Shown piece by piece: positions 27,822 to 63,932 of a DNA stretch of 64,000 nucleotides. The DNA lies in NCBI GenBank assembly GCA_964017065.1, contig OZ024787.1, forward strand, positions 6,569,301 to 6,633,300. Direction: 5' to 3'. How positions within the stretch are numbered: the first letter of the stretch is position 1; each line of letters begins with the position of its first letter. Both the position numbers and the translations under genes were made by a program. Origin of the DNA: Haliclona indistincta. Its lineage: Eukaryota > Porifera > Demospongiae > Haplosclerida > Chalinidae. The notes under the pieces are model-generated. The model had not been told where the DNA came from and ran no database searches. It saw only the letters and a list, made by a program, of their open reading frames with translations.

Positions 27822-27885
27822 GTACGTTTACAAAACGAATTTGAAACCTCGTTTACAATGAGTGTGTCTTGTCATTTATTCAGAA

Positions 27886-42800: not shown

Positions 42801-45800
42801 CTGGAGTCTTCGAAGAATGGTAAGCTCGTGTAGGATCACCATTCTGCGCTTGCTAAATGAGTATAACCGCTACAAACAATTGTGGGCGGGGCTGCATGAA
42901 TGCGTAGGCGAGCTGATATGTACAGCATAACAATTTTTAGCTACAAGTTTGAAAAGCCATCAACAACAGGAAACTAAACTAACAGTGGAAACATAGACGG
43001 CTCGGTACATCATGATATTGAACTGCACTTCACTGAAAACGAAAAAAGGACACAAGCAAGAAAATTAAAAATATTTCTATGGAAATCAAAGGGATGTAGG
43101 GATAAAGAAATCTGCCACTGGTTCACAATGTAAACCAACAAGGAACAAGCATGGAATGGTAACACGATTGACTTGCTAACAGACCATAGATCCCTACATC
43201 AGTGGCTGTACATAAGATCACTATTTAATCACAAGCTGAATGCACGTCAGGTGTCAGTCAACAGCAACTAGCTGAACTAGCTATAGCCAACCACAGCAGC
43301 CACTGTTGTAGGGATATATGGTCTGTTAGCAAGTCAATCGTGTTACCATTCCATGCTTGTTCCTTGTTGGTTTACATTGTGAACCAGTGGTAGATTTCTT
43401 TATCCCTACATCCCTTTGATTTCGATAGAAATCTTTTTAATTTTCTTTAATATTATGGGTTAGATACTGAAGTCTAAGGATTCATGCTTGTATGTTGGTG
43501 GTTGGTATTATGTTTGCACAGATCCATAGCATTTAGGGACTTAAAATCAGCCAATCAAACCACTGGGATTTAAACATACCATATTTGCGTTCTATTAGGT
43601 GCAGCTCGTGTATAGGCACATCGTATTTTAAGCGCATGTTTAGCTGCAATGCTCAATATACTTAAAACCCCTATTTATTAGGCGCACCTTGCATACTGCT
43701 GTGGAAATAATAGCGCATTAAAGCCATTAATTGAGCCTGATAACCCCGTCAGTACAGCATTATTGTCTAATCATATAATTTGACCTTTGGCTTATTAACG
43801 TTTTCTCTGTCTTCCAGAGCTTGGTGTGTGTTAGGAGGATAGCAGATGCTCTGATGGCACTGCAGCAGTATGGCAGTGGAGACTACATTGGATGGGAGAT
43901 GACATTTCCTTGTGCTCTACCAAATGTTGTAGAAGAACTTCAGAAAGTGGCTAGCGGGATGGAGACTGATCTGGACAAGTGGAAGAAAGAGATTCAGGAG
44001 AAGAGAGACGAGTTCTATGAGCTCAACTATTATACCACACAGCAGCTGCTGCTACTCAGAGAGGAGCTGGGGAGATTGAAGGAGCCCGGAGAGGATCAGG
44101 TGGAGCCACATGCAATGGCTCTCTTACAGAGCATCTCCAGAGAGGTGTCTGCTGATGCCATGAAGAGATATGTGCAACAAGTGGCTACCATCTTAGAGCA
44201 GCAAAGAGCATCATCTAGTACCACGGAGAAAGCAGTGAAGAAGAAAGTGCAGGAGCCAGTGAGCTCTTCCTCTCATGTGTCTGGCCAAGAAGCAGTAGCA
44301 GCATCAGTGCCATCACCATCACCAGCTGAGGCATCGTCTGCTCTCATGGCTGACTTGCTTAAGAGTGAAGGTGCCAAAACATCTGCTCCATTAGCACAGA
44401 CCCAGGAACATGAGCTCACTAATGACAGGAAAGCAATTCTAGTTAATCTAGAGGAGATGTTTGAGTTTCATAGACAACTAATTCTCTTGGCTTTTGAACG
44501 ATGTGATAGTCCAGTAGACCAGAATGAGGTATCCAGATGGTGTTTGGAGAATCAAGACAAATACAAATACGAAGATGAAGATAAAGATGAGGAAGATGAT
44601 GAGCCAATGGAAGAAGACACTCAGGATATGAATAGCGACAAGGAGGTTGTTACAGAAGAAGATGCTGTATCATTCATGGATGTAACAGCAGATGGTGCAC
44701 CACTTCCATCAGCTGAAGTGGTAGTGAAAGAGCGTGTTGCTGTAGATGAGCACCATCCTGTAGTTAAGAGACTGCTTGACTTAGACTATCCTCTTGACAA
44801 GTGTCTGGATGCAGCTGAAAGGTTCCCTGAGGACAGCCATGCTGCCTATGAGTATTTACAACAAACTGGAGAACAGGGTGATATCTTTGGAGAGGAAGAG
44901 GTGATGGAATGGTCAACAGTTGAAGCCTCTAGACCAGCAGCGGATTGTGAAGAACCAGCTGTGCATGTTGGGAGGTAAGACTGTTGACTTACTATTAGCC
45001 CATTAATGTATGTATAATTTTGTCAATGATTATAATTCGATCTTTAGCTCAAAGTTGGAAATTGTCAAGTGTCAGACTAAAGCTTATCTCACTCTATTGG
45101 AGCTAGGGATGGTACTGGATATAGTTAGAGATGATTATCCAAGTGAGTATACATACTTGGGCTCATGCTATTATGATATTTTGTGCATAATATATAGATC
45201 CTGTTCTTAGTAAGCGGCCATTTTCTGACAAGGTATTAAAGATTGGAGAGCCAAATCTTATAGTGACTCCACCAGGTAACAACCATTATATGTATAGTAT
45301 GTTCTGTGTGGCTGGTTGTGGGAGTATAATTTTTAAACCAATAACTTTATGCGGGATTATTTCAAACTGTTTTCAAAATGCAAGATTAAAAACTGACCGT
45401 GCATAGTAAGTATACGAGTAGTGCATTGAGAAGGAAAAGTTCATTTAATTTGAACTTGTTACCTATAAAACAACTTGAATTATAGCTGCTGGTCATATAC
45501 TACAACTGATTGTTGCAACTATTAATATATGTGTGTAGGGCCATACTTATCTGTAAGTATGGCCATACTGCCTATATTTATCTGTCTCAATGTTCACTCA
45601 CAGACAATGTGATCAAGACCACACTAGCCCTGTACATGGAGGGTGATGATCAGTCCCTACCCATGCCAACCTATGAGGAGGTGTTAGTGTGTAGTGAGAG
45701 GACCACAGATGAGGAGGTCACTCTGCTCTGGAAGAGAGCCATCAATGATCCCTTCAACTTCAGACTGTTCTGCCTCGTACATGCTGAGCGTCTCTCCTAT

Positions 45801-48800
45801 CAGGTGTGTGACAGAGCATTGTGGTCTCTCAGTCAACTATCACAGGGACAAAAAGGTTAGCAGCAACAACTTGCATATTGTCACACACAAATCGAGGTGT
45901 CTTGCTATCCTTAACTCGAGAGTCACTCATACCTAGTGAAATCAGGATACCTATGCACTAAGCAGATGCTATGTGCTTTGCTAAGCAACCCTCCTGGGGC
46001 CGGCTATGCCTCCCACTGCTGGTGTTGGCACCGTACGTCTCACCAACTTCTTTAGTGGTGAATTAGACACAGCCAGTGGACTTTGCTTCTCACTGTAGAC
46101 CAGGTACTCGTTTAAAGATGGGTGGGCTAATGAGCTAGAGGCACTTACATGAAACAATGGATGTTTTTTTCCCTCCTGCCCTAGTGGGGTGAGCCTTGGG
46201 TTGAGAACCCCAAACTCTGAGTCTAACCAGAGAACCACCAGGGCACACACACACACTGATGTGCTGAGTGTGCAGTATGTCTGTATATCTGTCTCATATT
46301 ATTTTCTTTCAGACTACAGGATTGTCATCATTTGTAGTAGTGAAGAAGAAGGAAAATCTCATGTTATCTCTAAGTTACAGCTCTTCAGACGGCCATTTTC
46401 AGCTTTACAACCCAATACCAGCTTTGCTGGCTATCTACTGAGGCATTTCAAAAGATGGCCTGAAGAGAAGAGAGTGAGCAGAGCAGTAGTTGCCTCTAGT
46501 GTAGATCCCGAGAAGTAAGCTATATGCCAAAAATGTTCCTCGGCTTACTAAATTTGCCTTGCCAGGTCATATGTGAGGGTGGTTACCTCTCAAAGAGCAG
46601 GAATGGGTAAGTCGCTGTACATCAAGCGACGTAGAGAAGCTCTCAAGGCAGCAACCATTCATGGTCCACATGAAGTGATAGTACCAATACATGGACCAGT
46701 AGTGACAGCTGACACTGTAGTGGGAGCTCTCAAAGAACACATTGGGATGTCTTGTCCCATCATATTCCATCTTGACATTGCTCCTAATGTGAGTACATGT
46801 ACATGCGTATACCTGTGCTCACTATCAACCACTTCTCTCTAGGTGTTATGGCAGGTGGACTCTATCTTGTTCTGTTTGTTGGTGCTGCAAGGACTATGTG
46901 ATAGCCAGGGTAATGTGTGGAGGTGTCATCCTGCTCATCTGTACATGATTGAGTCCACTATACCTAAGGTGATTAGTAGTGTTCAGTGTTCACTTAGTGT
47001 AGGTTATATCCCGCGTTAGCGGGATATACGACCCGTTATATCCCGCGGGAAAGGGCGCGCTCAAGTGAAGCCAAGGCGCTTCCGAAACTTCACGAGAGCG
47101 CTAGCCCTTTCCCGAGGGATATAACGGATCGTACGTCCCGCCAACATGTGATAAAGCTTACTTGTACCATGCTAAAGGCTGTTCTGATCTTGGGCACGTG
47201 ATGCGGAGGGAAATATGACCCGTTATATCCCTCAAATAGCGCAATCTGATTGGTCAGAATAGTCTTAGTATGGTATAATAATAATACTTTATTCACTCAG
47301 GGTGGTGAGGGCATGGCTGCTAGTCGCACTACTACACTCTTCAAGCTACTACCATCAGTTGAGTGTGTATCACCACGACAGTTACATGCAGGGCAGCAGC
47401 TACAATGTAAGTAATAGTGAGTCTCGGCGACCACAATCTTTAGCTTAACTTTTAGCTAACTATGTGCCAATGGATGAGGCAGAATTCCGTAGCCACACCT
47501 ACCAGCGTGTGTACCAGTACCTGCGTAGACACATTGCACGGATCAGTCTGGATCGGTTCAGTTATCGATCTGGATCAGTTGAAGGAAATACAACTGATTG
47601 TCTCCAGATTATGTTAAGGTATGAAATACTGCAGTGAAGTGCTAAAACTAAGCTCTTTTAGTGAGTGTGGAGTGAAGGATCCCTCATGGGTGGAGCTGAA
47701 CCATTTCCTCAAGTTCCTTGACATTCAGTTGAGCTCTTGTGAGAAGTCGATATTCTGCAATGAGGATCTTGTTGGTGATGTGATGTCAGGATTGAAGACT
47801 TTTGTAGTCAAGTTCATGATCAGAATGTCAAAGGTTAATTGGTATAGTTAAAGAGCACTAGTCAAGAATGAGGCCGAGCTGGTATCTCAAGCTCACCTTG
47901 GCATTGTATTGACATTGAGATTATGCTGATAATTTGTGCTAAGTTTTTTGGTAATGCTGTGGCACGTGTCTTCTTTTAGGCCATATGTCCACGTTATGTG
48001 CATTGCCATAGATTATAGGACGCATGCAGTACTTGTGTTGGGCATACATTATCTTATTCTTCTACTTGTGTTTCTACCATGCATGCAGGACTTTGCCACA
48101 TCTTCACTGAAAGGTGAGGTAGCTACTGAGAATGCGGAGGTCATAGCATTGGGAACACTTGAAGAGTACACCATTTCAGAGAGGAAGGAATGGGAGAAGA
48201 GGTAAGAAAAAAAAATCTTAAATAAGTAATCTTTTGAATTGTTTCTTTTGTAGCTATCATCCTTATCTGTTCTTTAATCGTGATGGTTTTAGTATGACAT
48301 TTGTTGGGTTCAATGCTAACAAAAATGGTGATCTTATTGATCCAGTCAAGAATGCTCGCATTGAAGGTCTAGAGAGAGTAGTCAGTGCTCAGTTACAAGC
48401 TGGACTCAGACAGAACCAGGTCAACTTGAGTGAGAACTATCAGCTGTGGAACAAGATGACTATGATGCAGAAGATGAGTCTAGTGATGGGTCTGGAGTAT
48501 GTGACTGATCCAGACTCATCATATGTACTCACTGTGGACAATGTGATCAAGATACTGGCAATACAAATGAGATTCAGGTGATGAGTCTTATAGTGGCTAA
48601 CTTAGTGGTAGCAAGGTGAATGATGGGATAACATTGCCTGTAAGCAGTATAAGCACCGCATGCGCCATTGCATATTCTGCTAGATACGTAGTTGCTGGCT
48701 GACTCTGTAACTCTATTTATGTCACTTTCGAAGCTCATCATGGCACATTAATTTCAAATTTAAACCCAGTGAATATGTTGCGCGCTTTTTGAAACTTGCG

Positions 48801-51800
48801 CAATTTAGAAACTGCGTTGTGCGAATTGATGGTTGCCAAATTGCATACTAATTTCGAAACTGCATGAGCAGTTTCGAAATGCGCAACGAGATCTACTGCG
48901 CAAAAAAGAAATTGTCGTCTACAGCATTGCAACACTATGGTTGCAAGCAGTGAACACATCTTTATACCTATTAAGCATGTGGAAAAGGTTAACACACTGC
49001 CACACGAAGGTCATGGATGCCAGCATCAACATGCACTGTGATTGATTCTAAAACTGTTTTTGTTGAGAGAAGTTCTCTAGCGATGCATGTGAGACAACTA
49101 CATTGTAGTACTACACAATCTGGTGAGACATACATGCTCCTTTGTGACTCACAATAATTATTAGTAAATACTGTTGTAATACAGCAATTTGGTCTCCTTG
49201 AAAAACTGGAAACCATCTGCAGGAGCTCAAGAGTTCAGTACAGTGATGATTTTTTGGCTGGCCCATGACGTATTATCAGTAGTAGTTGCCAGCTTCATAT
49301 GCATAGAGTAGGGCTCCCAAGTATGCAGAGGCAAAATTAATGTAGACTAAAACTACTGAGTACTGTGTACTTATATTGTGCAAGACGTACGCAATTTCGA
49401 AACTAGCCACGCAATTTGGCAACCATAAATTTGTGCAACGCAATTTCGAAATCGTGCAAGTTTCAAAAACCGCAGAACAAAATTACACCCATGCATAATT
49501 TTCTGCACAACTTACCGTTGGATGCCACTTCTCCTCTGCAGGTGTAATATACCAGTGGTTGTGATGGGTGAGACAGGATGTGGTAAAACTCGTCTCATTC
49601 GGTTCATGTGTGACATGATAGCACTCAGTGCTGGTGGAGGAATAGATAGTGTCAGAAACATGCTCATCATGAAGGTAGTGCCAGATTAGTGACTGCCATA
49701 TCTCATGTACATCTGATCCTTTCTCTACTGTAGGTTCATGGAGGATCAACAGAACAGGATGTGAGGAACAAGGTGCAGGAGGCAGAGGAGCTTGCTATGA
49801 TTAATAAAGACAAAGGGATTGACACAATTCTCTTCTTTGATGAGGCAAACACAACAGAAGCTATTGGCCTGATCAAAGAGGTCATGTGTGACAGACGTGT
49901 GTATGGACGAGAGATCAGTCGAGATGTGAACTTCATAGCAGCCTGTAACCCATACAGAAAGTGAGTGGCCAAATAACATGGCCAAAATTACTTGTGGCAA
50001 CTCTTGCTGCAGGCATACTGATGAAATGATTGGCAAACTAGAGTCAGCTGGTCTTGGTTTCTATGTGAAGGCAACAGAGACGCAGCAGAAGTTGGGTAAG
50101 CTGAAAGGAAGCTGATGTGCAGCACTTTGTTTGTTCTTTAGGTAAAATCCCATTACGTCAGCTGGTGTATAGAGTGATAGAGCTCCCTCCCAGTATGAGG
50201 CCATTGGTGTATGATTTTGGTCAACTCACTAACACTACTGAACAAGACTACACTGGACAGATAGTCATCAATCATTGCTCTGAGACTGAGACACTTCCAC
50301 AGCAGGTTATAACAGCAGTGTCTCGTGTGCTGGCTTGGTGCCAGAAGTTCATGAGAGGGAGAAGGGTGAATTTTCATCTTATATGTGTATTATGATTACG
50401 TCTACTGTTGTACAGGATGAGTGCAGTTTTGTCAGTCTTCGTGATGTTGAGAGAGCTATGGTGGTGTTCAAGTTCTTCATAGACAAGATGAGTTTGTTTA
50501 AAGACCTTATTGCTGAAAAGGCTAAAGATGAAGTGAGGAGTATATAATATAATCGATGTGATGTGATCTGTGTACTGTCTTTTTCTACCAAGGATGGCAA
50601 GACTCCTCTACAAGATGTCCCCACTTGGGCTTTAGTACTTGCTCTCAGTATCTGCTATCATGCTCGACTACAGGACAGAGATGATTTCGAGAATGGAGTA
50701 GTTCAACAATTCAGCCCACCACTAGCTCTTACTGGAGGAGTGCAACAGTTCAAAGATGAAATAAGATGGTAATCACTATTATACTATTATGTCAAAGTAA
50801 CCTTAATATATCCTTATATCTTCAGGTGTCAAGAGGTACTATTGGAGAACATGTTGTTGGGTCGTAACATTGCTAAGAATGCTGCTCTCAGAGAGAATGT
50901 GTTCATGATGACCATCTCTATTGAGCTCAGGATACCTCTCTTCCTGGTTGGTAAACCAGGCAGTTCAAAGAGTCTTGCCAAGTCTATTGTGGCTGACTCG
51001 ATGCATGGCAAAGCATCAGGGAAGGATCTATTGAAGCATTTCAAAGAGGTCTGCCAAAATAAGACATAACGCTATTAGAGTGACAGGAAGACCTGTAACT
51101 AGCTTATGGGCAGAGCCAGTGAAGGCATACAGTAGTCTATGTGACATTGTTTTGATCAGAACATTTAGTGCCTAGTTGTAAAAGTGTTCTTCAGTGATGA
51201 GGATACACACGCAGTTTGAATTATACTGACATCAGTTGCTATGCAGAGCAGCAAAACTGTTAAAATCAACGAATAGTAAACAGGAGAGACAGTGTCCTTG
51301 AGCAGGTAGAGTAGCTGTGAAATCTAATAGTACATATAACTTTGCTGGCAACCAGCTGCCATCATATAGTCACTATTGTTTAAATTTCTGATTTTATGCC
51401 TCATTGGACTGAGCCACTGGAAGGCATACAGTCCGTTTGTAGTACATCCATCGTATGTAAAGTCCACTCTTAACGATACTGTTCTGTCTCACTATATTGC
51501 AAGTGCACTATTAATTATTGCTTGTATAATCCACCACAGGTGCACATGTTCTCATATCAATGCAGTCAACTCTCAACTCCAGAGAGTGTTATTGAAGTGT
51601 TCAACACAGCCAGGAGCTTCCAAGACAAACAAGATACAAGCAAGTTTGTCTCAATTGTAGTATTGGATGAGGTTGGACTGGCTGAGGACTCTCCTAACCT
51701 GCCATTGAAAGCACTCCACCCACTACTAGAGGATGGGACTGAAGGAGCTGATGACTCCAAACAGGTGAGGCATGATGGATGGTCCTGCTAGTGGATGAAG

Positions 51801-54800
51801 CTAATGTGCTGTTTGGTGTAGATTGTTGCTCGTGAGAAGAGAGTTGCATTCATTGGTATCTCTAATTGGGCACTGGATCCAGCTAAGATGAATCGTGGAG
51901 TGATGGTGACCAGAGGAGATCCTGACAGGAGAGAGCTGGAACTTAGTGCTAGGTAAAGGAGTGTAATCAGTTAATCACTACTAGTTCGTCTTAATTTCAT
52001 TTGTTCACTTATCCTTCTAGGGGTATATGTTCCAATGAGGAGAATGACCCAGTCAAGAAGCGGCTCGACAGGTTCTTTTCTCCATTAGCAGATTCTTACA
52101 TACAAATTAGTAAAAAGCAAGACCGTCAATTCTATGGCCTCAGAGATTTCTACAGGTACAGCAAAGCTGTAAACATTGCAAAGCAAAGCTTCACTTACCT
52201 TCAATATCTCTTCTAGTCTTGTTAAGATGCTGTACTGGATGTGTGAGAAGACTCAATCTGACCCAACTAATAAACAATTAGAACACGCTATCAAAAGAAA
52301 CTTTGGTGGACATGATAAAGTGGATGCTTTTGAGATTTTTAAGTTGAACATTATTGAGCTTGAGACTGAATCACAACCAATTACTGAAGATATGTCTGAA
52401 CAGGTAAAGGAGAGCTACATGTGAATATAAAATGTGAATTTTTGTCATGTTATAGCAACGAGCTGTTATGTATCCTGACTGCACTCCACTGGGACTGATT
52501 AGAACTAGTTTGAAGAACAAGGAGACCACCTGGCATGGGTTAGTGATAAAAAAGTTATATTTTAATTGTATTAGCAGTCTTTTTTGGTTTACCTTCACAT
52601 TTGTATCCTTTTCTCTATAGGGAGAATCGTTACTTACTGTTCCTGACAGAGAACTATGCAGCTCTTCAGGTGCTCAAGCGGTACCTACAGGAGGTGGTTG
52701 GTCTGCCAGCACCCAGCAGGGGTCCTGCTGGTGGAGCAGGAGGGCTAGAGGGACCCAGTGTAGAGGAGGAAGGAGATATCCAGAGGAGGAAAGATCAGCA
52801 GAGAAAAATGGAGCCCTTTGTGCTGTTTGGTAGCAGCTTTCCTAAAGACAGGGAATACACTCAGGTATTGCTCTCAAGATGATCTACTATGATACACAAC
52901 GTGAATGTCATTCTTTGTTCAGGTGTGTCGTAACATCAATCAGATCAAGATATGTATGGAGACTGGTCGTACTGTTATTCTGCTCAATCTGGAGAACCTG
53001 TACGAGAGCTTGTATGACTTGCTCAATCAAGTTAGTGTCACTACTATACATGTTTAGTTGTGATTCTATTCTTGCATTTAGTATTACATCATGCTTGGTG
53101 GTAGTCGATATGTGGACCTGGGACTACAAACTCATCGTGTCAAATGTCGTGTACACGAGGACTTTAAGTTTGTGATTTTCTTTTGCTGTCAATATAGATT
53201 TGATTGTGTTTTTGAATAGGCTCATTCTGATTGCTGAGAAGGACACGGTTTATGAGAAGTTTCCAATACCTCTCATCAATCGTTTAGAAAAGCATTTTGT
53301 GCTCACACGTACTGTGCTACTATCCTGGCAGGAGAGAGTGTTGGATGCTCTGATTGAGTGGGTGAAACAGTTCAGTAGAACTGGAAAGTAAGTGTGTAAA
53401 GAATGATGTCCTACACACAAAACACAAACAAGTTAGTCTCGTACTGTGACTGTGTTATGGTCTCGGTTGAGCATGCACATAGCATCATTATGAGAGACAG
53501 TGATGCATTTAGCCAGTTCTTCACTTACCTAAGGTCCTCTTAAAGTTTTATATGACAAGTTGCTAGAATAGAATCAGTTACAGACTAGTTTTTGGCAATT
53601 AGCGATCGTGCAGGTAATCAACATACACTGAAACAACAATCGTGTACGGTTTACACATGTATAGGCATTATGGACATCATTCACAAAGTCAGAATAACTC
53701 TTGTTCCAGGTTCACTGAGAAGGATTCATTTGTTGGTTATCAGAATGACACACCAGCATCTGTTGTGTTCCAGGCAACAGAACAACTGAAAGAGGAGCAG
53801 GATTATGAAGTGGACGAGGCAATGGAGGAGAGTGCTGAGTGGCTGGACATGGTCATGGAGCGCAGCAAGAACTTGTTGATTCAAATGGCCTCTCCTGATG
53901 CCCTTATTAGGCTACAAAACGTTAATATACCAGAAATTGAAGAAGACAAGAAAAGCATTACCAGTGCATACACTGAACAATGCCACACATCGATCCAAGA
54001 CTTCCTGCGCCATCATCTGCAGTTACATAATGGAACAGAGGAACGAGACGGAGGCTTTCTACTACATGTGAGTAGACCATAACACTCACTGACTTTTAAC
54101 AATTGTTTCTTCCTTCCTCTCAGGTAACCACTCATAGTCACCTTCTGTCTACTACAGAGATGGAGGCACTAGGTCAAGATCTACAATTCTCTCGTGACCA
54201 GATCAAGTGGTTTCTACTGCAGGAATTTGATACTGAAATGGACTTTAGCAACAAAGTCAAGTTAGTGTGTTATACAATGTAATTATGTGCTGGCTTATAT
54301 TCATTATAGGTTAAGCTTTGAACACCGCTGTCGAGAAGACTCCTTGCTCATAGTCCAGTGTGACTCAGGTCATCTCTATGGTGACCTCATTGCTTGTGCT
54401 CGATATCGTGTCGATGATGAGAGAGAGAAGAGCAGTCACTTATGGACACCAGAGTACGGTAGAACACATGTCCTCTTTATTGTCCATCTTCCACGACAAG
54501 GAGGAGAAGGTGTTGGTGATGGTGCACTGGGCTCTTTTGTTGGGTTCCAAGGTGGAAAGTGGCTCTCTGCTCATATTGATGATCTGAGGGCTCCTAGTGA
54601 AGCTGCTCTGAGTCTAGAAGATGCTCTCCATACATCTATTAGTAACTTGTTCTATTGTGAAGGTACCGTGCAAAACATTGAAGAAAATTTGGAAGAAGAA
54701 AGAGAGGAAGGCAGGCTTGAGCAAGAAGCCAGGCTTGTATATAAGGAATCCTATCAATGCTATCGTCTGTATAGCTGTATTCAAGCAGCAGTGGCTCGTG

Positions 54801-57800
54801 CTGTCAACAGTGACAAGTCAAAGCAATGGGCAATACGTCGTGTCAATGTTCTTCTTGACTTGATTCCACAACAACCTTCGTTCCCTCTTGCTAATGATGA
54901 TATGTTCTATGCTGCTCTAGTGAGGCACATTCATGCTGTACTGAAGGAGAGAGAGGAGGTAATGGGAGAGGAGACTGGATGGGTGCTTGATGAGGCCATG
55001 AGCAGGAAGAAGCTCCAGAGTGGAGGGACATTTCGTAATGTACTATCACGTAAACTTGATGAAGTGATCATTCCAATATTTGCTGAGGTGCTAGTATCCA
55101 TAGATCGATACTCTAATCTTGATCTTGTGAGGAAAGGAAGTCCACCTTACATTAGGCAGCTGTGGCTGAGTGCTTTCCCTGTACTCTGCAAGTTCAGTTA
55201 TGTTGACATGACCACTCAGGGAGGAGATCAGTTGGCAGGGATGGGCCAGAGGAGATCAACCAGTAGTGAGTTTCGCTGTCAGTTTCCATTCTTCTGGTTA
55301 GTGAAAGAGACAGTGGACTCACATTGGGACAATGCAATTTCAGTAATAGGTTAGATATTGAGAGATGAAGAGTTGTTGGATGTGATAATACATTTTACAG
55401 GTGGCCATCGTCAGCAGGTCCATCAGTACTTGTGTGAACAGCTAGTTGGTACTGATATCAAAGAGCCACTTGAGAGTGTCAATGAAGAGAACTTGCAGGA
55501 TCTGTATCAATGCTATTTGAGAGACTACATCAGATGTGTACATCAAGTGACCCATAAGCAAGGAGCTGTTGAATACTTGGTGAGCTAACTCACTTTCTCT
55601 AACTTGTTACATTACATTTCCTCACACAGCTGATAGAAGCAGCCCTGAATGCCATCATCACTAGTCCTGACCTGTCTCCTCCTAACTCTCCTCATCCTCC
55701 TCTCCTCTCTCGTGTAGCTGCTGTCCATACTGCCTACCATCACTATCAGAGAGAGCTGCTCTGGTTTGGTAGCCTCACATCTCATCTTCCTGGAGTGCTG
55801 ATATCACTACAAGATATCACTCACAACCCAGACAAGCTGGAGCTCCACCTGCAAGCAGTACAGATGGTACTGGAGAATGAGATGATCCCTCCTCTTACTC
55901 CGAAGAACAAGAAGCATCTCCCACAATGGCTGATGTGGATGCAGCTGTGTCAGAATGCCATTGACTCCATTATAACACTAGGACGAGAGTCAGAGGGACT
56001 TGCCACAAGACTATAGTGAGTAAACTATATTGTCTCGTGCAATACTTTCATGATATTTATTATTCTTTATAGTGCTCAGTGGCAGCGTGTCAGAGCTGTT
56101 CAGTTGTTTGCAGAACACATCATCACTAAGCATTATAGTATTGGATTGGAAACATATGGAAAGAGACTGGACTTTGTGAGTACATTCAGTCACTTTATCA
56201 ACGTATTCACTTCACTTTCCACCATCTTAATCAGAGTCTAGAGAGCAGCTGTGATTTTACAAAGGACAGTACAGTTGCTGCTGTGCAGAGGACTCTGCAA
56301 GCTATGGAAGGAGAACTAGAGAAGAAGAAAAAGTTAGACTTTCTGAATACTTACAGTGCTTTTAATCTAGAGGAGCCACTTTTTATTCCCAGAGTTGTGT
56401 GTGTAGTTAGTCCACACAACTTTCTACATAGCCCTTTCTATTGCATTAATGCAGATTGCAACTATGAGGATGAGAAAATGCAAGACACACGATGCTCTAC
56501 AGCTCTCTCCCATTGAAGCTAATACAATAGCGCCATGTTTGTGACATCACTATAATTTGTACAACGTCACGACGAACCACACCTACGACACAGCAGCCAC
56601 AGTCTAGCGCCATAACGAGGCTTGGCGGTTATTATTCCTCGAGCTTAGCTAATATCTATGCTGTAGAAGCACGCTTAAGAACGGGCAAAGCGCAAAACAC
56701 AGCTTTTGATCGGCGCTATTCTTGCCGCTCGACAGTGAGCGGCGCAGCGCACGCAGAAACACGTAATCGATAAACGCTCATATTGGATGAATATCATTAT
56801 AACACGGCAGAGAATCGAAGTCACAGCCAAACTTTGTGTTCTCGCTGACCGCGTTTGCGCATGGATGAACGTATCGCGCTAGTTTAAAACTAGTGAAAAC
56901 TACAAGTATCTGGCTATCCAGAGATCAAGTGGTTTTTCTTAACTCGCAAAGATGTCCAGATTTCAGCGTTAACACTTTTATCACCAAAAATCGCCAATTT
57001 CTGGTACATTTAGGGCTCATAATTCACTATGCTTGCAAGTTAAGCTCTCTAACTTGCTGAGATTAAAACTGAATAGTCATTCAAGCAGACTGCAAAGGGA
57101 ATTTTCTTAACTCAGCTCCATACTATTTTCCTGGCCTTAACACATTTTTTCATAATTGCAAACCAATACCTGGTACACAAGCAGCAACAACTTTACTGTC
57201 AACTAGCATAATCAGTCCAGATTTTCTACACACACTACAGAATGATGTGTGAACACTCATAGCAAATTTCAGTCCAATAGCAACTATAGTTACTTTTTCT
57301 GAACACAAAACATACTTGTTAACCACAAAACACAAAAGTGGCTCCTCTAGATTAAAAGCACTGTAGTTCCAAGCTTGTTTTTTCTCTTTGACAGACTAGA
57401 CAAGCATGCAATGTCCTCCATCAGGGAATCATGTAGAGCCTTCTTCATGGAGCTGGTGTCTACACTGTGCTTTGGACAGACCACTCTCCCAGAGCCTGCT
57501 CTCATTAAGAGATTAATGAACATTGTGTTTAAAGATAATGATAAGACAAAAGAGTTCACATATTCTGACAAAGCAGCAGCTGATAAACAACCAGTGATCA
57601 GATCATTCCTACTACAACTACTGATGGAACATGAGTAAGAAAAGCATTAATAATGCCTTCAGAGTCGTTTGTATGGTACATGTCACAAAAAATAAAGCCT
57701 AATGAATAAATTCGCATTTTGCTTGTTGGTTCTCAATATCATCAAATTAGTACCAATGCATGCAGTGTGCATTTTGCTACTATTTTAATGATCTCTCTCT

Positions 57801-60800
57801 TATAGTACTGAGCGTGTGCGAGTTCATTTGGAAGATTACTTTGAGCGATCACAATCTTGTCATATCGTGGAACTAGACCACCTCTCGATGCTCTGTATTC
57901 AGTGCTTTGAGGTGAGTATTAAGACCAGGCCTGCCAAGGCTAAGTATTGATTGTTCTGCTCATCATTAATTTTTGTCTGGAAATAGCAAAGTCACTTATA
58001 GACATGCACTAATGTTGTCATGCAAAGCATCACTCAATTGAGTGTACCTCTGCATTGCCATCATACAGGATGCTCTATTCAAGCAGTATATACAGTATAC
58101 TCTACAGCAGAGGATCAACCATTCACTACAGCTACTGAAGGATGGTAGTGAGGGGATGATGTCTCACTCCTTCCCTGCCCTGCCCTACCTGGAGGCAGTG
58201 GCTAAGCTGAGATACAGTCTATCAGTAGTTGCTGAATTACTACACACACAGCTAACAGCAGAAAGAGGAGCAGACAGAGGAGGAGGCCATTATCACACTC
58301 ACGAAGCTCGCCTACTCATAGAGGAGACTAAGCAATGCTGCTCCATTTCACATATCAACCAGGAGGAGGCGGGGCCTGGTGTGTACCTAGTGAAGCTATT
58401 GATGAGACAATATGGTCCATCCTTCCTGACCACCCTCACTAGTGACCCCGCCCTCCAGTGGGTGGTGCCTGAGCACCTCTGGCAATGTGATGACACGGTA
58501 CTTAATTTCTTCATTACTTCAATAGTGTCAATCACTCTATTACTCATAGGAGAGTCAAAGAACGGACAGGTTTGTCATCTATGATCCTCACTATCCTCAA
58601 CTACGCACTGCACTACTGGATGCTGCTTATGGTCAACAAATGGAAGGTCTAAAGGAATTCTGCCAAGTAAGAAATTCCAAGGTTTTCCTTACTTCTTCAC
58701 CTTGTCTACTTCAGGAACTCACTCTTAGTGAGTCAGTACCTGTGTTACTGGCAGTGTATGAGGTAGTCACACAGAGTCACTCATATCGTCAGCAATCCAA
58801 ACACATTGATGTGAGTGTCTCAATTTCATTTCCTATAACCTGTCCTATTAGGGAGGCATGGTAATGCCTCCCTTGAACAGAAAAACAAGATGGCGGCTAC
58901 ATACAATGTATTAGCGTTCAAACGCTGATATTTCGCCTGGTGATGAATTTTTTATGTCCAAAGACACTTAAATCTGCTATCTGGCGATGCCCCATCTTAC
59001 AGTAGCAAGGAGATTGCTCGAAATTGTTATTGTTAACCTGGAAACGGTGAAAATCGATTCGTCATCTACGTTTTCTTCTTTCTTCAGCGCGCCTAGCGCC
59101 TTTACGCGAGCAGTGCCGAGACCAAAACACCCACGAACAGTCGTGAAATTCTCCTGGCAAGTGCCTTTCGAACTTTGTTCTTGGCGAAACGGCGATATTA
59201 ATTCCGCGATTGCTCGATCGTGATCCATTGTCAGCTAAGTGTTAGACGCCATTATTGTGATTGTGCAATACGCACGTGGCCAAGCAGTGGTTAGCGCACG
59301 TGACCAAGCACTAGCTTGAGTATCTCCGCGCCGTATGGATCATGGAGAACACATATCTGTCTGGAGTCTTCAAAGAACGGTAAGCTCGTATAGGATCACC
59401 ATTCCGCGCTTGCCAGATAATCGTAAGATCTACAAACTAGCTGATACGTACGGCATAACAATTATAGTTTTAGCTACAAGTTTAAAATTATTAATAATAA
59501 AGAAAAGCCATCAACAACACGAAAACTAAATCAATGGTGGAAACAAAGACGGCTCAGTACGTGCATGATATTGAACTGCACTTCACTAAAAAGTAAAACG
59601 GACACAAACAAGAAATTAAATAGATTTCTATCGAAATCAAAAGGATGTAGGGTTGTGAAATCTACCACTGGTTCACAATGTAAACTAACAAGGAACAAGC
59701 ATGGAATGGTAACACGATTGACTTGCCAACAGATCATATATCCCTACATCAGAGGCTGTACGTAGACAAGCTGAATGCACGTCAGGTGTCAGCAGTCAAC
59801 AGCAACTAGGTCAACCACAGCAGCCACTGATGTAGGTATCTATGGTCTGTTGCAAGTCAATCGTGTTACCATTCCATGCTTGTTCCTTGTTAGTTTACAT
59901 TGTAAACCAGTGGTATAGATTTCACAACCCTACATCCTTTTGATTTCGATAGAAATCTTTAATTTCTTGTACATATACCTTATACCATACACCACATTCA
60001 ACACAGGATGAGATAATTGGAGAAATATCCAGCTTTACCAAGAATCTGACCACGCTTAACAGAGAGGTACATATGTGTTATATGTGTATTCCAATCATTT
60101 TTTCCTTTTCTTTTTTAGCTCAAGTGGACTGCTGAGGCTCTCATCAGAAACACTCAAGGAGGGCAATTGGATGCTCTGTGTTGTCGACCTGGTCACTCCC
60201 CTCATGCTATCCTCCTATCAGGTGTAGTGGTACACACTGCTATCACCATCTACAGTAGGAGCACACTGGACATCATGAGACCACTGTTCAATATGTTAGA
60301 GAAACCAGGAGATCTACAGGTATATACTATAATTAGATATTGAACATACTTGACATGTTCACTATAGCAAGCATATCTACCAACCATGCCACAAGATGCA
60401 CTACCTGAAGCACGTCGTATATTAGGAGGATCATTTTATGGTACAATGTCTACTACATTACTCGGTGTGTGCATATAACTTTGTCTCTTCTCTAATATAG
60501 AATGTGCCAGAGGTCATCCATACTTCATCAGTGAGGTAAGTGACTATAATAATTGGCTACATAGTGACATGATGAAACACATACAGTGTGGCCGTGCCTA
60601 TGTAGAGAGCACATGTCCAGTATGTGGGTCTGGAATCGGTGGGAAAAGTCATGCACTAAGAAGTGACAACAAAGTGGCAAGACAGTTAGTACATGATTCA
60701 TTGGCCATCTTAGTAGTCACCATGTTTCCTTTGTTTTGCCTTCTTTAGAACGGACAACACTCAGACAGGCCATGCTCTTGGTCCTCCTGAGCAGCGTGAG

Positions 60801-63800
60801 ACTATTCCCTCTCCAGAGCGCAGTCTCTCACCAGCAGCATGTGCCATCCTCAGAGCCATCATGCACTCAGCACTACTCTGGGCTACCTGCAACAATGAGG
60901 TCTACCATTACAGCTCAGTGAAGCATTCCTATCTCACCTGTTATTTCCATCCACTAGAATGCAATGGAAGGTCTCATCCAGCTCACTCATACAGCTATGA
61001 GACCTCATGATATGGCTGGGTTCTTCTGGCGCCATCTTGAACATGATATCACCATGCTGGGGAGGGCAGTTGGAAAGAGTGAGGATGATGTTTGCCTTCT
61101 TCTTCACCTCATTCTCAAGAACATGGCATTGAAGACTCCTGCTTCAAGTCAGTTGCGTTCTTCTCTTCATCAATAATCTGCCGTATAGTGGGAAATTTTC
61201 GCGAGAGGAAATTTTTGCGAATTACAAGCTATTTGCGAAAATATTATCCGCGAATGACTGCAATAGTGCTGATTCGCGAAAATATTATTCACGAAAATTA
61301 ATGATCTATCTCGCGCATTCGCGAAAACTTTCTCCTGCAAAAATTTCCCGCTATACGGTACTTCTTCCTATCTACTCACAGGCAGTGGTATGCAGGTGTA
61401 TGCTAGTTTGCTAGCAACTAATGCAAGAGAACAATGGGAGAAGTGTTTTGAACAAGAGTACATACAACCAGTGTTATCAGTGAGTTAATAGAGAAAGAGT
61501 GTGTAGGGAGTTAATCAATCTGCAATTCACAGGGTCTAGACAAACTGATAGGAGATGCCATGAATCTCATAGCCAATGACAAGAAAGAAGGTACATGTAA
61601 CAGCTATATCTGCTGTATGCATTATTCATTACCTCTGCACAGATCGTGATCGTTTGTTCTATACTGTATATGAGAAGTCCTCCATACCCTCCTCCTCTCT
61701 CCTCCCTCACCTGTGGACCTATCGCTCTCGTATCACTCTAGAGCATCTGTTCCAGACCTTGCAGGCACAGAAGATGAAGGACACTTGTCCAATACTACAC
61801 GAGTTCCTGAAGGAGGTGAGTGAGACTGTGCTGTATTATGACCACCCTATGTCATTCTCTTGTCAGGAGTCCATATTGCGAGCCACACGTTATCTTCCAG
61901 AATTGGTACAACTACAGAAACAGATGTTTGATTTCAGTCATCGACGACTAGACAGGAAGGAGGCGGCCAAGCTGCCAGTACGAGACTATATCAAGAGCTT
62001 GAAAAATGGTGTGTGAATATAGCAGTGAATGAAATCTATCTGTTTAAAAATCTTAATAGAGCACAAGAGAAACCAGTTCCGTGAGCAATTGAAGTGTGTA
62101 AAGATAGTTTGGGATCTTGTAAAGGACAAGCTTTCAGAATATGGTGAGTGTCATGCGACTGACTATTCTACATGTTTATACACATGTCATATCAGCTCGA
62201 GTGCGTGTTCCTGAGGAATATCTTGGTATGGTGGTATCAGAGGAGCTCAAGGTGGAGTGGTTCATACCCACACTGACTGGTCCTGGGGTAGTGACTGTGG
62301 CCATGTTGGACCTGCTGGTTGGAGCTCACAATGACTTCATTAAGAAGAGCCGGGCTGTGCTCAAGAAGGGACAGAAAGCTGAGTGAGTACAAAAGAGATA
62401 GTAATGTATACTGTTGCACATCATTTCTTTCTTCTTCTATCCAGTATTAGCTGGAAGGAGCAGAGGATTCCTGTACCTCATGTACAGCTGTGTCATCTTC
62501 TGGACTATGAGCATCAGTTGCTGTCCATCGTTCTCTCTCACTGTCGCTACTCACTCAGACACGGTCATGGACAGGACATCAGATATGACCTGCCAGCACT
62601 GGAGAAACACATTGTGGATCGGTTCATTCACGGTAAACCACTTCTTGTGTTGGAGATACCTCAAGTAGTGTATCGGAGAGATGTCTACTCTGCTACATCA
62701 TTTGCTAACATCAGAAAGAAGGTGTCACCTCAGGTATTGCTAGAATAGATAATGTGTGGATCCTGAAGCCTCTCTCTCTCTCTCAGATCAAGCTGAGTCT
62801 AAGAGAGCAGCAAGATATTGTTGCTGAACTGAAGACGGTACAGAAAATACGTGACTGCCTCGATGTGGTTGAGATAGTGATGGGATTTCTTGCTTCTGGA
62901 GGACAAAAGTCTGACAATTGTCTTGAGAACTATCTTGAGACAGCACTGAAGATGAAGCATCGTTTCAACTGCAAAAAGGTGAGTTTGTGAAGGATGAATG
63001 AGAGAAATGATTCTGGCTTGTTAATTCCTAAGGCTCTGGAGTACTGCACTCTTGGTCATGTACTATCACTGTGGGAGACACTGTCAGTGGAACTAGCTAA
63101 GCTGCTCACTCTAACTGATCAGGTATACATGCTGTACATAGTCTGGGGGCCCGCCCCTTTCGCAACGAGGAAAGGGTCTGGTAAAAACCGTACACAAAAG
63201 TCGTGCAGCGGCTGTGCAATGTATTACATAATCATAAACCGCATGCGACACCGCGCCCACGCAAACAGCGTATAGACAGCAGCTGGACAGAGCTGAATGT
63301 TAGGACGCCTACGTAAACGTGGTCGTTACGTAATTAATGATATGCACTGCATCCTGATTGGGCGCACTATATGAGGTGCCGTCGCACGACTTTTGTGTAC
63401 GGTTTTTACCAGACCCTTTCCTCGTTGCGAAAGGGGCGAGCCCCCAGACTATGCTGTACATGTGTCCTAACTCTCATCAATATACTAATTGATGCTTGGT
63501 CAATAGGAACCATTCGACTCTCTTCGTGACAACTATCTGGTTGAACTAGGAGACAAAGAGGAGAAGCAGCTTGATAGAGTGCTCGCCAAGTGTGATCTTC
63601 CTGTGCTACTGTGCACTCTGTATGAGTTTATTGAGACCAATGTTCGCCACAGAGAACCCAGAGAAAGCGACTGGGAGTACGTATAACAATAATTATGTCC
63701 ACAAAACTTTGAGTTTTCTTCATGTAGCTATGTGATTCCATGATTTACTCTGTTTTTCTGTAGACTGGTAGACACGCTGGGGGCTCATCTTGATCAGTAC

Positions 63801-63932
63801 AGTCTCCCTCCACTACCTGACCTGGATCAGCTGCCAGGAGACATCACTATTGGACAAGCTGTGAGCACATGGAAACATGTCGTGATCTATCAGCACAAGA
63901 AGAGGACCAATACCACCCAGCATCTCTACTGA
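27886..63932 (+). CDS. RNF213-like giant AAA+ ATPase / E3 ubiquitin ligase, full length, RING-less
   Basis: The family is recognised from VVLDEVGLAEDSP, ALHPLLEDG, YVDLGLQTHR, FPIPLINRLEKHFVL and the RZ finger, all RNF213 signatures. My model has 76 exons (listed in the five block entries), 17,814 bases, 5,937 residues; human RNF213 is about 5,200. Order: three zinc ribbons, Pro/Gln-rich and repeat region, CBM20-like region, helical arm, degenerate AAA units with a P-loop in AAA2, active AAA3 and AAA4, E3 region, C-terminal domain. Vertebrate RNF213 is a cytosolic ligase acting on lipid droplets, bacteria and viruses; this role is inferred here. I chose the ATG at 27886 because it follows a 5' UTR splice acceptor and gives a Met-Ala-Ala start before the first zinc ribbon. 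Anomalies are the missing RING, an enlarged N-terminus and a 6.7 kb transposon-filled intron. Confidence 0.93.
27967..28197 (+). other. Triple zinc-ribbon module
   Basis: Three paired-cysteine modules follow one another: C28/C31 with C43/C46, C53/C56 with C67/C70, and C85/C90 with C101/C104. Each second half reads FC..CG (FCNQCG, FCSYCG, FCDNCG). Vertebrate RNF213 begins with a single such ribbon. The third module has C-x4-C rather than C-x2-C. Such ribbons usually bind zinc and mediate protein contacts; the partner here is unknown. Confidence 0.85.
29272..29720 (+). repeat. Coding minisatellite, SESGPRS repeats
   Basis: An 18-base unit of the type GAATCAGGACCTCGATCT repeats with substitutions, encoding SESGPRS, SESGPQS and SESGHPS. 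Within it a 48-base higher unit (SESEHSGPRSESGHPS) is repeated at least four times. All changes keep the frame. The result is a charged, disordered stretch of about 150 residues between the zinc ribbons and the folded core. Its length probably varies between alleles. Confidence 0.9.
32401..32974. mobile_element. TTAA MITE, piggyBac-like family, inverted copy
   Basis: This is the reverse complement of the family at 331-883. It keeps AACTAAAGGGTTAA at its right edge (TTAA 32971-32974), GGTCGTAAACTTTGACATGCC, and TGACTCCACCTA..GTAGACGTCATAA at the left. The left TTAA has decayed. No coding capacity. Confidence 0.7.
34445..35716 (+). CDS. Harbinger transposase (DDE_Tnp_4 type)
   Basis: 423 residues from the ATG at 34445, 172 bases inside the element, to TAA. 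After an Arg-rich start (residues 24-45) comes a helix-turn-helix-like stretch (LERRVAITLWVLATTSEYRT, VGHLFGVARNTVCVIVHE). The catalytic core follows: the first Asp in GSIDGSHVPV, then GWPGSVHDARVL, the second Asp in LVGDSAYPLLPWL, and the Glu in VVENAFGRLKARWR. Length and motif order match complete Harbinger transposases. It has no stop or frameshift. It should cut and paste the element together with the SANT protein encoded on the other strand. Confidence 0.92.
   Translation: MVSHRGASVVGFLTLMDGQSVERSYRRAGRRLRRRVRSRGRVVIAIAMAAVMLFVNEFYLAAVPRSIWMRQRSCNWWEDVVLQSFQDHDWIENFRVSKSTFLYLCDQLKSRIDKQNTVMRNCISLERRVAITLWVLATTSEYRTVGHLFGVARNTVCVIVHETCTAIVKKLLPVYVQFPERNGLVQVMDGFKQNFGIPQCAGSIDGSHVPVTPPCMNHTDYYNRKGWYSMLIQAVVDHEYLFRNLCIGWPGSVHDARVLANSSLYKKVINGQIFLGISNHAQIQGHPIRPFLVGDSAYPLLPWLIKPFSFSSSLTSEQKLFNYRISKGRVVVENAFGRLKARWRRLSKQIDMHIDNAPHIIAACCVLHNVCEVHKDNFDEDWLQELDTSTHVQPSCVSSNSSTNTSGGNEVREVLVDYFKNEN
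35850..36869 (-). CDS. Harbinger Myb/SANT-like DNA-binding protein
   Basis: 339 residues from the ATG at 36869 (minus), tail-to-tail with the transposase. The N-terminal 95 residues form a Myb/SANT-like trihelix domain (WTDDEVFKLIEIW, the Cys-Arg-Ser-Lys-Val-Lys-Lys-Leu helix, WRFFDALDEVFG). A Ser/Thr/Asp/Gly-rich spacer follows, containing GSGNTGSGS and STSSGSGNTSTSS repeats, then a Lys/Arg-rich coiled-coil-prone stretch (residues about 230-290) and a Gln/Tyr/Pro-rich tail. In known Harbingers this partner binds the element ends and brings in the transposase. The frame is intact. Confidence 0.9.
   Translation of the reverse strand: MAGWTDDEVFKLIEIWNEDGIQEQLEGSKRNKHVYEKLCTQLRGAGYVRTGEQCRSKVKKLRQQYKKIKDNNGMTGRGRGKWRFFDALDEVFGHRPATRPPVIFDTTDDQQSTDSHASNRAVSQPAPPSSASKDVNNPVEEEDTDTDGEETSTSAVPSLDHSIMSTSSSSSSSDSTSDGTGSASDNTISGSDNTGSGNTGSGSDGNTSTSSGSGNTSTSSGIASDNSEASKKDKEKTRKKRKTREEQLENVLTKVMKTVTDGMRDTEKMFIEVEEKRLSNEAEQRREERQFKLQLAQIFAGQPSSPPYHYPSQFYQPHPMIQPQQQCYQSHDGNNEQDQ
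38679..42231 (+). other. RNF213-like copy 2, block II: N-terminal arm / stalk (exons 8-18)
   Basis: Exons are 38679-38900, 38952-39138, 39191-39258, 39344-39653, 39754-39978, 40031-40223, 40417-40746, 40794-41371, 41431-41596, 41654-41877 and 41929-42231. They encode mostly helical sequence matching the arm of vertebrate RNF213: LLDLLEWDLWP-like helices, then CQKGQDVKDFQWMKEVIVRM, LQIRDALKLTGDFGLVERI and SVKETQGSVEVTS. Human RNF213 has the corresponding VKESLGLNGDFSVL and VNESHGSVE. No catalytic motif is seen. This arm curls around the motor in the vertebrate structure. Confidence 0.8.
42270..43446. mobile_element. Composite foldback element C
   Basis: The hairpin end TTAGGGAGGCACGGTAGTGA is at the left, then the reverse complement of the shared body (AACAAGATGGCGGCTACATAC onward), then the foldback (arms about 43060-43200 and 43290-43446). 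It lies in the intron 42232-43817. The remaining intron, 43447-43817, is AT-rich and unrecognised. Its orientation is opposite to that of element D. Confidence 0.65.
43818..48577 (+). other. RNF213-like copy 2, block III: linker and degenerate AAA units including AAA2 P-loop (exons 19-30)
   Basis: Exons are 43818-44974, 45048-45142, 45198-45275, 45604-45855, 46313-46514, 46566-46788, 46843-46968, 47301-47406, 47456-47618, 47662-47833, 48089-48201 and 48254-48577. Exon 19 is a long helical, then disordered acidic linker. Exon 22 (LPMPTYEEVLVCSERTTDEEVTLLWKRA) matches the vertebrate LPTYDEVLLC region. Exon 24 holds RAGMGKSLYIKR, the AAA2 P-loop, which binds ATP without turnover in the vertebrate structure. 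Exon 30 ends with the TVDNVIKILAIQMRFR helix leading into AAA3. Confidence 0.82.
46969..47300. repeat. Intron with foldback sequence
   Basis: Between exons 25 and 26, ACCCGTTATATCCCGCGGGAAAGGG at about 47034 pairs with CCCTTTCCCGAGGGATATAACGG at about 47106, enclosing GCGCGCTC and GAGCGC. A second copy of GACCCGTTATATCCCTC lies at about 47218. This is probably a small foldback element. It encodes nothing. Confidence 0.6.
48750..49495. mobile_element. MITE or foldback in the intron before AAA3
   Basis: Arms of about 80 bases pair across the intron: TTTTTGAAACTTGCGCAATT through ATGGTTGCCAAATTGC (48787-48845) against its imperfect complement at about 49385-49472. The many AATTTCGAAA motifs are internal. 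About 530 bases lie between the arms with no frame of interest. It sits in intron 48578-49541. Confidence 0.6.
49542..53387 (+). other. RNF213-like copy 2, block IV: AAA3 and AAA4 motors (exons 31-46)
   Basis: Exons are 49542-49674, 49734-49960, 50013-50095, 50142-50365, 50416-50532, 50593-50768, 50826-51048, 51540-51764, 51822-51952, 52021-52155, 52217-52403, 52456-52538, 52621-52864, 52923-53030, 53082-53167 and 53220-53387. AAA3 has Walker A MGETGCGKTRLI, Walker B ILFFDEANTT and a sensor-type Asn in AACNPYRK. AAA4 has Walker A VGKPGSSKSLAK, Walker B IVVLDEVGLA and sensor GISNWALDPAKMNRG. All key Lys, Asp and Glu residues are present, so both rings should hydrolyse ATP as in vertebrates. 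Exon 38 (51540) is where homology with copy 1 begins. Confidence 0.93.
51049..51539. other. Intron between AAA4 Walker A and Walker B exons
   Basis: This 491-base intron contains the duplication boundary: only its last 40 bases or so (from about 51500) are shared with the sequence upstream of copy 1. The rest has no recognisable repeat ends or frame. Confidence 0.6.
56354..57363. mobile_element. Non-autonomous Tc1/mariner-like element
   Basis: The termini CAGTGCTTTTAATCTAGAGG and the complement CCTCTAGATTAAAAGCACTG form inverted repeats of about 30 bases. They are flanked by TA on both sides (56352-56353 and 57364-57365). CAGTG ends and a TA target are hallmarks of Tc1/mariner. The 1,010 bases contain no transposase. 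It fills the intron between exons 53 and 54, leaving only about 52 bases of original intron. Confidence 0.85.
58848..59966. mobile_element. Composite foldback element B
   Basis: The hairpin end TTAGGGAGGCATGGTAATGC is at 58848, followed by the reverse complement of the shared body and then the foldback (arms about 59610-59755 and 59820-59966). It is in the same orientation as element C and occupies the intron 58811-60006. It is the insertion that copy 2 carries where copy 1 has the unrelated MITE 20580-21127. Confidence 0.7.
60501..60684 (+). other. RZ-type zinc finger exons of copy 2
   Basis: Exons 60501-60535 and 60587-60684 encode ECARGHPYFISE and CGRAYVESTCPVCGSGIGG. Cys, His, Cys, Cys and Cys line up with the vertebrate RNF213 finger (CPNGHPCSVGECG, then IICIDCHAPIGG). 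The Gly-Gly after the last Cys pair is conserved. In vertebrates this finger is essential for transfer of ubiquitin to bacterial lipid A. The preceding 73-base exon provides the helix leading in. Confidence 0.9.
61180..61360. mobile_element. Short MITE (CCGTATAG family) in copy 2 intron
   Basis: The ends CCGTATAGTGGGAAATTTTC and the complement of AAAAATTTCCCGCTATACGG are about 180 bases apart. Internal TTCGCGAA/GCGAAAA motifs repeat. In copy 1 the same intron is 49 bases (22397-22445) with no insertion. Confidence 0.8.
61816..61866 (+). other. 51-base intron that is open in frame
   Basis: GTGAGTGAG..TTGTCAG has good donor and acceptor, but reading through adds exactly 17 codons with no stop. 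The copy 1 equivalent (22882-22932) appears identical over its whole length. Removing it gives LKE|ESILRATRYLPEL, which aligns without a gap to vertebrate LQKEAELRLVKFLPEI, so I treat it as an intron. Confidence 0.75.
63140..63450. mobile_element. Foldback MITE with 11-base target duplication (Mutator-like)
   Basis: The arms are nearly perfect complements of about 67 bases, starting AGTCTGGGGGC. The flanks ATGCTGTACAT at 63129-63139 and 63451-63461 are identical. An 11-base duplication with long inverted repeats fits Mutator-like elements. It lies in intron 63123-63506 of copy 2, between the third- and second-last coding exons. It encodes nothing. Confidence 0.8.

Follow-up and report, generated by a model that had tools for sequence, protein, structure and literature searches.

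RNF213 (mysterin) of vertebrates combines a dynein-like AAA core, an E3 module that includes a RING, an RZ finger with a Cys/His dyad, and a C-terminal part; apart from the RING, these components and their order are shared by the sponge gene described below. As described in the sections of Ahel et al. (2020, PMC7311170) drawn on here, the RING lies between the final two E3-back helices, and mouse RNF213 in which residues 3941-3999 were replaced with GSGSG retained wild-type autoubiquitylation. In the parts of PMC12075652 used here, Cys4462 and His4483 form the active site of mouse RNF213, whose docking site for the E2 is the C-terminal domain (CTD) rather than the RING. According to the results given in PMC11549300, Salmonella and Listeria are still ubiquitylated by RNF213 without its RING, while ubiquitylation of Toxoplasma vacuoles is partly impaired. 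The RING is nonetheless of consequence in the accounts cited, as engineered RING-less RNF213 leads to cell death upon expression (PMC12440826), and the RING is both a site of mutations in Moyamoya disease and a binding partner of a Shigella effector (PMC12440826, PMC11549300, PMC7311170). ZNFX1-type proteins share the RZ finger with RNF213 but are helicases, not giant AAA proteins with an E3 module.

Here, we describe a natural RING-less variant of the RNF213 family from the sponge Haliclona indistincta, whose genome also holds a RING-bearing form. In the open-licence literature, we found no earlier report of a natural RNF213 without a RING.

Gene model of copy 2

The window, meaning the whole stretch of 64,000 nucleotides that was analysed, covers positions 6569301-6633300 of contig C5 in a genome of 144 Mb. 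It contains two gene copies of interest, of which copy 2 is an RNF213-family gene with an AAA core, an E3 module, and an RZ finger (Table 1). Exons in the 3′ half of copy 2 were modelled by hand from GT-AG signals. The resulting splice model contains no stops, its E3 and CTD exons are open up to the stop codon, and an independent spliced aligner reproduced the exons over the part tested (53711-57635). Against solved RNF213, the E3-back, shell, and core scored 195 bits with phmmer (E 1.7e-56), and AAA4 with the part that follows it scored 552 bits; the Pfam AAA match was barely above the cut-off. Walker motifs are present in AAA3 (GETGCGKT and FFDEAN) and AAA4 (GKPGSSKS and VLDEVG), and both modules are predicted to be active. 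The upstream model carries four frameshift marks, three of which precede the AAA core. A mark between AAA3 and AAA4 was dismissed as a model error, as an alternative intron placement reads open. Farther upstream, the frame with a double zinc ribbon probably serves copy 2 as its N-terminal exon, and it fits the family in that PF12773 is also listed for three bivalve proteins. Among the mobile elements of the window, the DDE_Tnp_4 and Myb/SANT frames form what we take to be a Harbinger-like pair.

Table 1. Positions of features in the window (position 1 is its first letter)
Feature	Position	Strand	Remarks
hAT transposase with BED finger	15986-17713	-	upstream of copy 1 exon 52
Copy 1 exon 53	18829..18926	+	
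Copy 1 intron 53-54	18927..19207	+	phase 2, 281 bases, without RING
Copy 1 exon 54	19208..19447	+	
Copy 1 RZ region	21756..21942	+	two exons; Asp for Gly after catalytic Cys
Open frame with N-terminal double zinc ribbon	27862..30651	+	930 aa; PF12773 34.4 bits
DDE_Tnp_4 transposase and adjoining Myb/SANT frame	34424-35713; 35850-36869	+; -	
Copy 2 AAA core and upstream stalk exons	40950..53373	+	spliced alignment to Lineus (nemertean) RNF213
Copy 2 E3 module and C-terminal domain	53710..63932	+	30 exons, 1923 aa, stop codon at end
Copy 2 exon 53	56235..56332	+	end of E3-back helix (...AVQRTLQAMEGELEKKK), phase 2 exit
Copy 2 intron 53-54	56333..57394	+	GT-AG, phase 2, 1062 bases; expected site of RING exon
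Inverted-repeat DNA transposon in copy 2 intron 53-54	56354..57363	.	1010 bp
Copy 2 exon 54	57395..57634	+	helix after the missing RING, then start of E3-shell (LDKHAMSSIRESCRAFFMELVST...)
Copy 2 first RZ exon	60501..60535	+	ECARGHPYFISE; zinc ligands C and H
Copy 2 second RZ exon	60587..60684	+	CGRAYVESTCPVCGSGIGGKSH; catalytic Cys and His, zinc pair

No RING at the junction of exons 53 and 54

An earlier note on this DNA had proposed that exon 53, ending in GELEKKKK, runs in phase into exon 54 with no cysteine cluster between them, and our splice model agrees. The terminal residues of copy 2 exon 53 are GELEKKK(K), at 56332, and exon 54 opens with (K)LDKHAMSSIRESC at 57395 and joins it in phase. 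The note had, however, placed the vertebrate RING after the E3-shell helix, which needs correcting to the position within the E3-back given in the cited sections of Ahel et al. (2020).

Most of the intron between these exons is taken up by an insert with perfect 32-base inverted repeats (56352-56383 and 57334-57365) and TA at each end. We regard this insert as a transposon because its first 87 bases (TA included) recur across the genome, with at least 40 matches, 26 of which, its own place included, are 100% identical over all 87 bases; this count comes from 40 scored out of 190 first-look candidates. Subtracting 1010 from 1062 leaves an intron of 52 bases, as the note had estimated.

Searching the genome with exon 54 gave ten matches, of which eight lie on C5; the remaining two are on C9 (39% identity) and C6 (37%). 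The C5 copies are named c1-c8, copy 1 being c5 and copy 2 c6. All eight have a phase-2 GT-AG intron between exons 53 and 54, which from c1 to c8 measures 56, 52, 73, 1304, 281, 1062, 251, and 53 bases. No frame of these eight introns contains a RING-like pattern, and this bears out the further proposal that the 281-base intron of copy 1 has no RING order of cysteines.

The situation on C9 is different. At the equivalent intron, this paralogue has a 192-base RING exon of phase 2/2, encoding CVSCECTLRPNDTVYLPCPEHHMFCNPCIKDAWKKGERNCIKC and flanked by introns of only 53 and 49 bases. The surrounding introns of C9 and C5 agree in position and phase (2, 0, 2, 2), but only C9 retains the RING exon. 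On C6, the same site holds a 57-base phase-2 intron and no RING as judged by a RING profile.

The distance between two anchors on either side of the site reflects this difference, at 63 aa in copy 2 and 66 aa on C6 vs. 129 aa on C9. In 14 of 16 animal RNF213 proteins the distance is 123-131 aa (the upstream anchor is absent in the other two), and in six mammal, frog, and fish proteins it is 130-131 aa.

RING searches in the window and its sister loci

Under Pfam, the 1923-aa E3 model of copy 2 gave an RZ match and a sub-threshold Nnf1 match but no RING at E values up to 10, a setting at which HMMER filters still drop most weak matches. The C9 RING itself reaches only 16.1 bits as zf-C3HC4_3 against a cut-off of 27. 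General profiles therefore miss divergent RINGs, and we built a family profile from the RING of 13 RNF213 proteins. Precomputed Pfam lists, such as those for the Lineus RNF213s, likewise show no RING, and we did not treat this as evidence because the sequences listed do carry one.

Applied to all six frames of the whole window, the family profile found nothing above 11.4 bits (E 0.094), and it had no match in 60 kb of the sister loci. When 6941 open reading frame pieces, drawn from ten loci and the window, were scored, C9 gave the sole match (36.6 bits, E 1.3e-9), with the next at 11.4 bits. A search with the C9 RING region revealed no second RING locus among the matches listed. Copy 2 has no cross-braced C3HC4 module, nor any RING in its E3-back. 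The profile search that the note had suggested as a check on the translated gene thus ended with no RING match from either Pfam or the family profile.

RZ finger, catalytic residues, and C-terminal domain

The RZ finger of copy 2 matches PF20173 at 57.4 bits and includes the catalytic Cys and His, so the note was right to call it intact. Across the C5 cluster, all seven copies that have an RZ finger retain the catalytic Cys and the final pair of zinc-binding Cys residues. The catalytic His is present in six of the seven, c3 having Ala, and the first zinc Cys is also present in six, a frame lesion removing that of c1. Introns of 34-37 bases just 5′ of the first RZ exon (60465-60500 in copy 2) were observed in six of the seven RZ-bearing copies.

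Outside the cluster, the RZ fingers of C9 and C6 are altered. That of C9 (L025:4595-4681; 44.1 bits to PF20173) has KCFC, that is C-x-C in place of C-x2-C, and its His lies one residue late, but the catalytic Cys is retained. The C6 finger has Phe at the position of the catalytic Cys and Arg at that of the catalytic His, and this paralogue (L026/L027), which has neither a RING nor an RZ catalytic Cys, is perhaps a ligase-dead member of the family.

The copy 2 model reaches the C-terminus, and the CTD Trp that contacts the E2 is kept in copy 2 and missing in C9 and C6. At this position, four invertebrate proteins of other species have F, I, or M (three proteins) or a gap (one), and the Trp of copy 2 would lend little support to E2 docking.

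State of the C5 copies

Frames are open from exon 52 to beyond the RZ finger in six of the eight C5 copies. Over this interval, c1 has three frameshifts and three stops. In c7, the match ends within the E3 core, near residue 1117 of the E3 model, and no RZ finger was found in the next 8 kb. We also observed that, past its break, c7 (C5:6704501-6714500) continues into stretches similar to an upstream portion of another copy, an arrangement suggestive of unequal joining of a tandem unit.

For the E3 region, dN/dS was 0.27-0.57 in all 15 pairs among six C5 copies (595-605 codons; c1 left out) and 0.25-1.09 in the six pairs that include c7 (143-145 codons). Values for exons 53 and 54 alone were noisy, ranging from 0.15 to 1.11 over 21 pairs. 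Judged by the ratios for the E3 region, the six copies are under purifying selection there.

Comparison with the engineered mouse deletion

To place the natural gap on the vertebrate protein, we aligned copy 2 with solved RNF213 chains, which we take, with the papers as a guide, to be human or mouse. With the mouse chain, phmmer matches stop at 3929 and restart at 4001, leaving 71 residues vs. 7 in copy 2, although the upstream stretch that sets the left edge of this gap is weak (18.1 bits). With the human chain, the upstream stretch stops earlier, leaving 112 residues vs. 42 in copy 2. The mouse positions are in 7oik numbering, obtained from the 6tay alignment with a constant offset of 523. 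We infer that the 7oik numbers are those published because the linchpin Leu3986 then directly follows the last RING Cys.

On this numbering, the natural gap encloses the engineered deletion, and the limits of the two agree within about 11 residues. Like copy 2, the engineered mouse protein, as its construct is given by Ahel et al., has no RING between the two E3-back helices; unlike it, copy 2 is natural, its state is fixed in a gene family, and it has helix sequence of its own instead of a linker. The note had seen in this gene a natural version of the engineered RING-less state, and the near-coincidence of the gap with the mouse deletion, together with the intact RZ finger, supports that view. 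Its other premise, that the RING of mouse RNF213 is dispensable for ligase activity, stands as far as the autoubiquitylation reported for that deletion goes.

RING loss in relation to other RNF213 proteins

Two protein searches yielded 16 animal RNF213 proteins, from nemerteans (2), bivalves (7, two of them titled hypothetical protein), a coral (1), and vertebrates (6), a small sample with no named sponge RNF213. All 16 have a RING-like module at the RING site, with strict C3HC4 in 13. In the other three, from the bivalves Crassostrea, Mactra, and Mya, the His ligand of the RING is replaced by Asp. At the linchpin position, directly behind the last RING Cys, the 16 proteins vary widely (K, R, L, N, H, Q, F, or M), and this variability fits a RING that would not be a classical E2 activator.

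An unrooted tree of 20 rows included five of the eight C5 copies (without c1, copy 1, and c7) and 13 of the 16 animal proteins (without three near-duplicates). C9 fell outside the group of C6 and C5 with support of 91/94, C6 being a long branch. We favour a single RING loss common to C6 and C5, as suggested by this topology; two independent losses were not rejected when tested on the tree (p-AU 0.166). Because C9 in the same genome and all 16 animal proteins carry the module, the loss is derived as far as the data go, and this answers the comparison of homologues that the note had called for. The RING looks ancestral, and the simplest reading would be that one symmetric exon was lost.

Other related loci in the genome

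Twelve loci on C10, C3, C2, C6, and C8 have an RNF213-like AAA4 region at 34-40% identity and lie outside the three RNF213 lineages. They are single open frames of about 390-560 aa. Four of these loci were searched with the RING profile, with no match (best 9.6 bits), and none of the twelve was among the matches listed in a genome search for RZ fingers. They may make up another family of giant AAA proteins. RZ fingers of the ZNFX1 type occur at two places on contig C2 (84-85 bits). A ZNFX1-like gene there (L030:767-6346) combines an RZ finger with a single open frame of 1860 aa, and of 7972 candidates scored, at least 3738 are related to it at E ≤ 0.001.

Discussion

We consider it probable, at roughly 80%, that the C5 genes are RNF213 members that lost one phase 2/2 RING exon and would work as RING-less vertebrate RNF213 does. 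The loss of one symmetric exon would have removed the RING and left the flanking exons 53 and 54 to splice in frame, so that the two E3-back helices that hold the RING would join directly. In the mechanism we propose, the AAA core would sense nucleotide, the C-terminal domain would dock the E2, and the RZ Cys would accept ubiquitin with assistance from the RZ His before transfer to a substrate. Copy 2 would most likely be a working RZ-only ligase. That the C5 genes are expressed and have a substrate is likewise something we infer.

The most serious alternative is that the C5 copies are RNF213-like ATPases that are no longer ligases, the RING having been lost first with the RZ finger to follow, and that it is the AAA core through which they now function, whether as coats, decoys, or regulators. 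In favour of it are the loss from C6 of the RING as well as both RZ catalytic residues, the Ala of c3 in place of the catalytic His, and the Asp of copy 1 beside the catalytic Cys. We nevertheless think this unlikely given the near-complete retention of the catalytic Cys and His across the cluster, the low E3 dN/dS in every pair of the six copies, and the E3 and CTD exons of copy 2 that stay open to the stop codon. A more general form of decay, in which the cluster is a tandem array made up mostly of pseudogenes and RING loss is part of its degeneration, would account for the lesions of c1, the truncation of c7 within the E3 core, and the hAT and other transposases in the window. Still, the loss is frame-neutral and common to all eight copies, six copies remain open from exon 52 to past the RZ finger, and dN/dS is well below 1; we give this alternative very little weight.

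The direction of change could also be reversed, with the RING absent in the ancestor and inserted later. Gain of a single exon is conceivable, the tree has no root, and two separate losses were not rejected. By contrast, a RING in this position is shared by C9, a cnidarian, a nemertean, bivalves, and vertebrates; its gain would take either two insertions at a single point or replacement at a later time, and we rejected ancestral absence as highly improbable on the strength of these shared positions. Least probable of all is that a RING exon is present but was missed, whether hidden in an intron, very divergent, or spliced from elsewhere. The low Pfam score of the C9 RING shows how this might happen, yet the family profile detects C9 easily and finds nothing in the window or the sister loci, and no other RING locus was listed in the search with the C9 region. 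Because introns of 52-73 bases in four copies cannot hold a 192-base exon, this explanation is weakened further, and we rejected a RING that is intron-hidden or very divergent.

With an ancestral RING lost from the C5 lineage as the preferred reading, the cell death seen with engineered RING-less protein and the disease mutations in the RING mean that the RING does something that the C5 genes forgo. Tentatively, and with less than even odds in our estimate, RING and RZ may have been split among paralogues as separable functions: C9 has the RING and an altered RZ finger, the eight C5 copies have no RING and seven of them an RZ finger, and C6 has neither the RING nor the RZ active site. If so, the C5 set would be a dedicated family of RZ-only defence ligases, and C9 would perform the non-catalytic job of the RING.

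Going by their sequences, the C5 genes argue that an RZ-only RNF213 may persist under selection, and copy 2 offers a RING-free protein of natural origin for biochemical and structural work. In this one animal, evolution has already run the comparison, placing a lineage that lacks the RING next to a paralogue that bears it.
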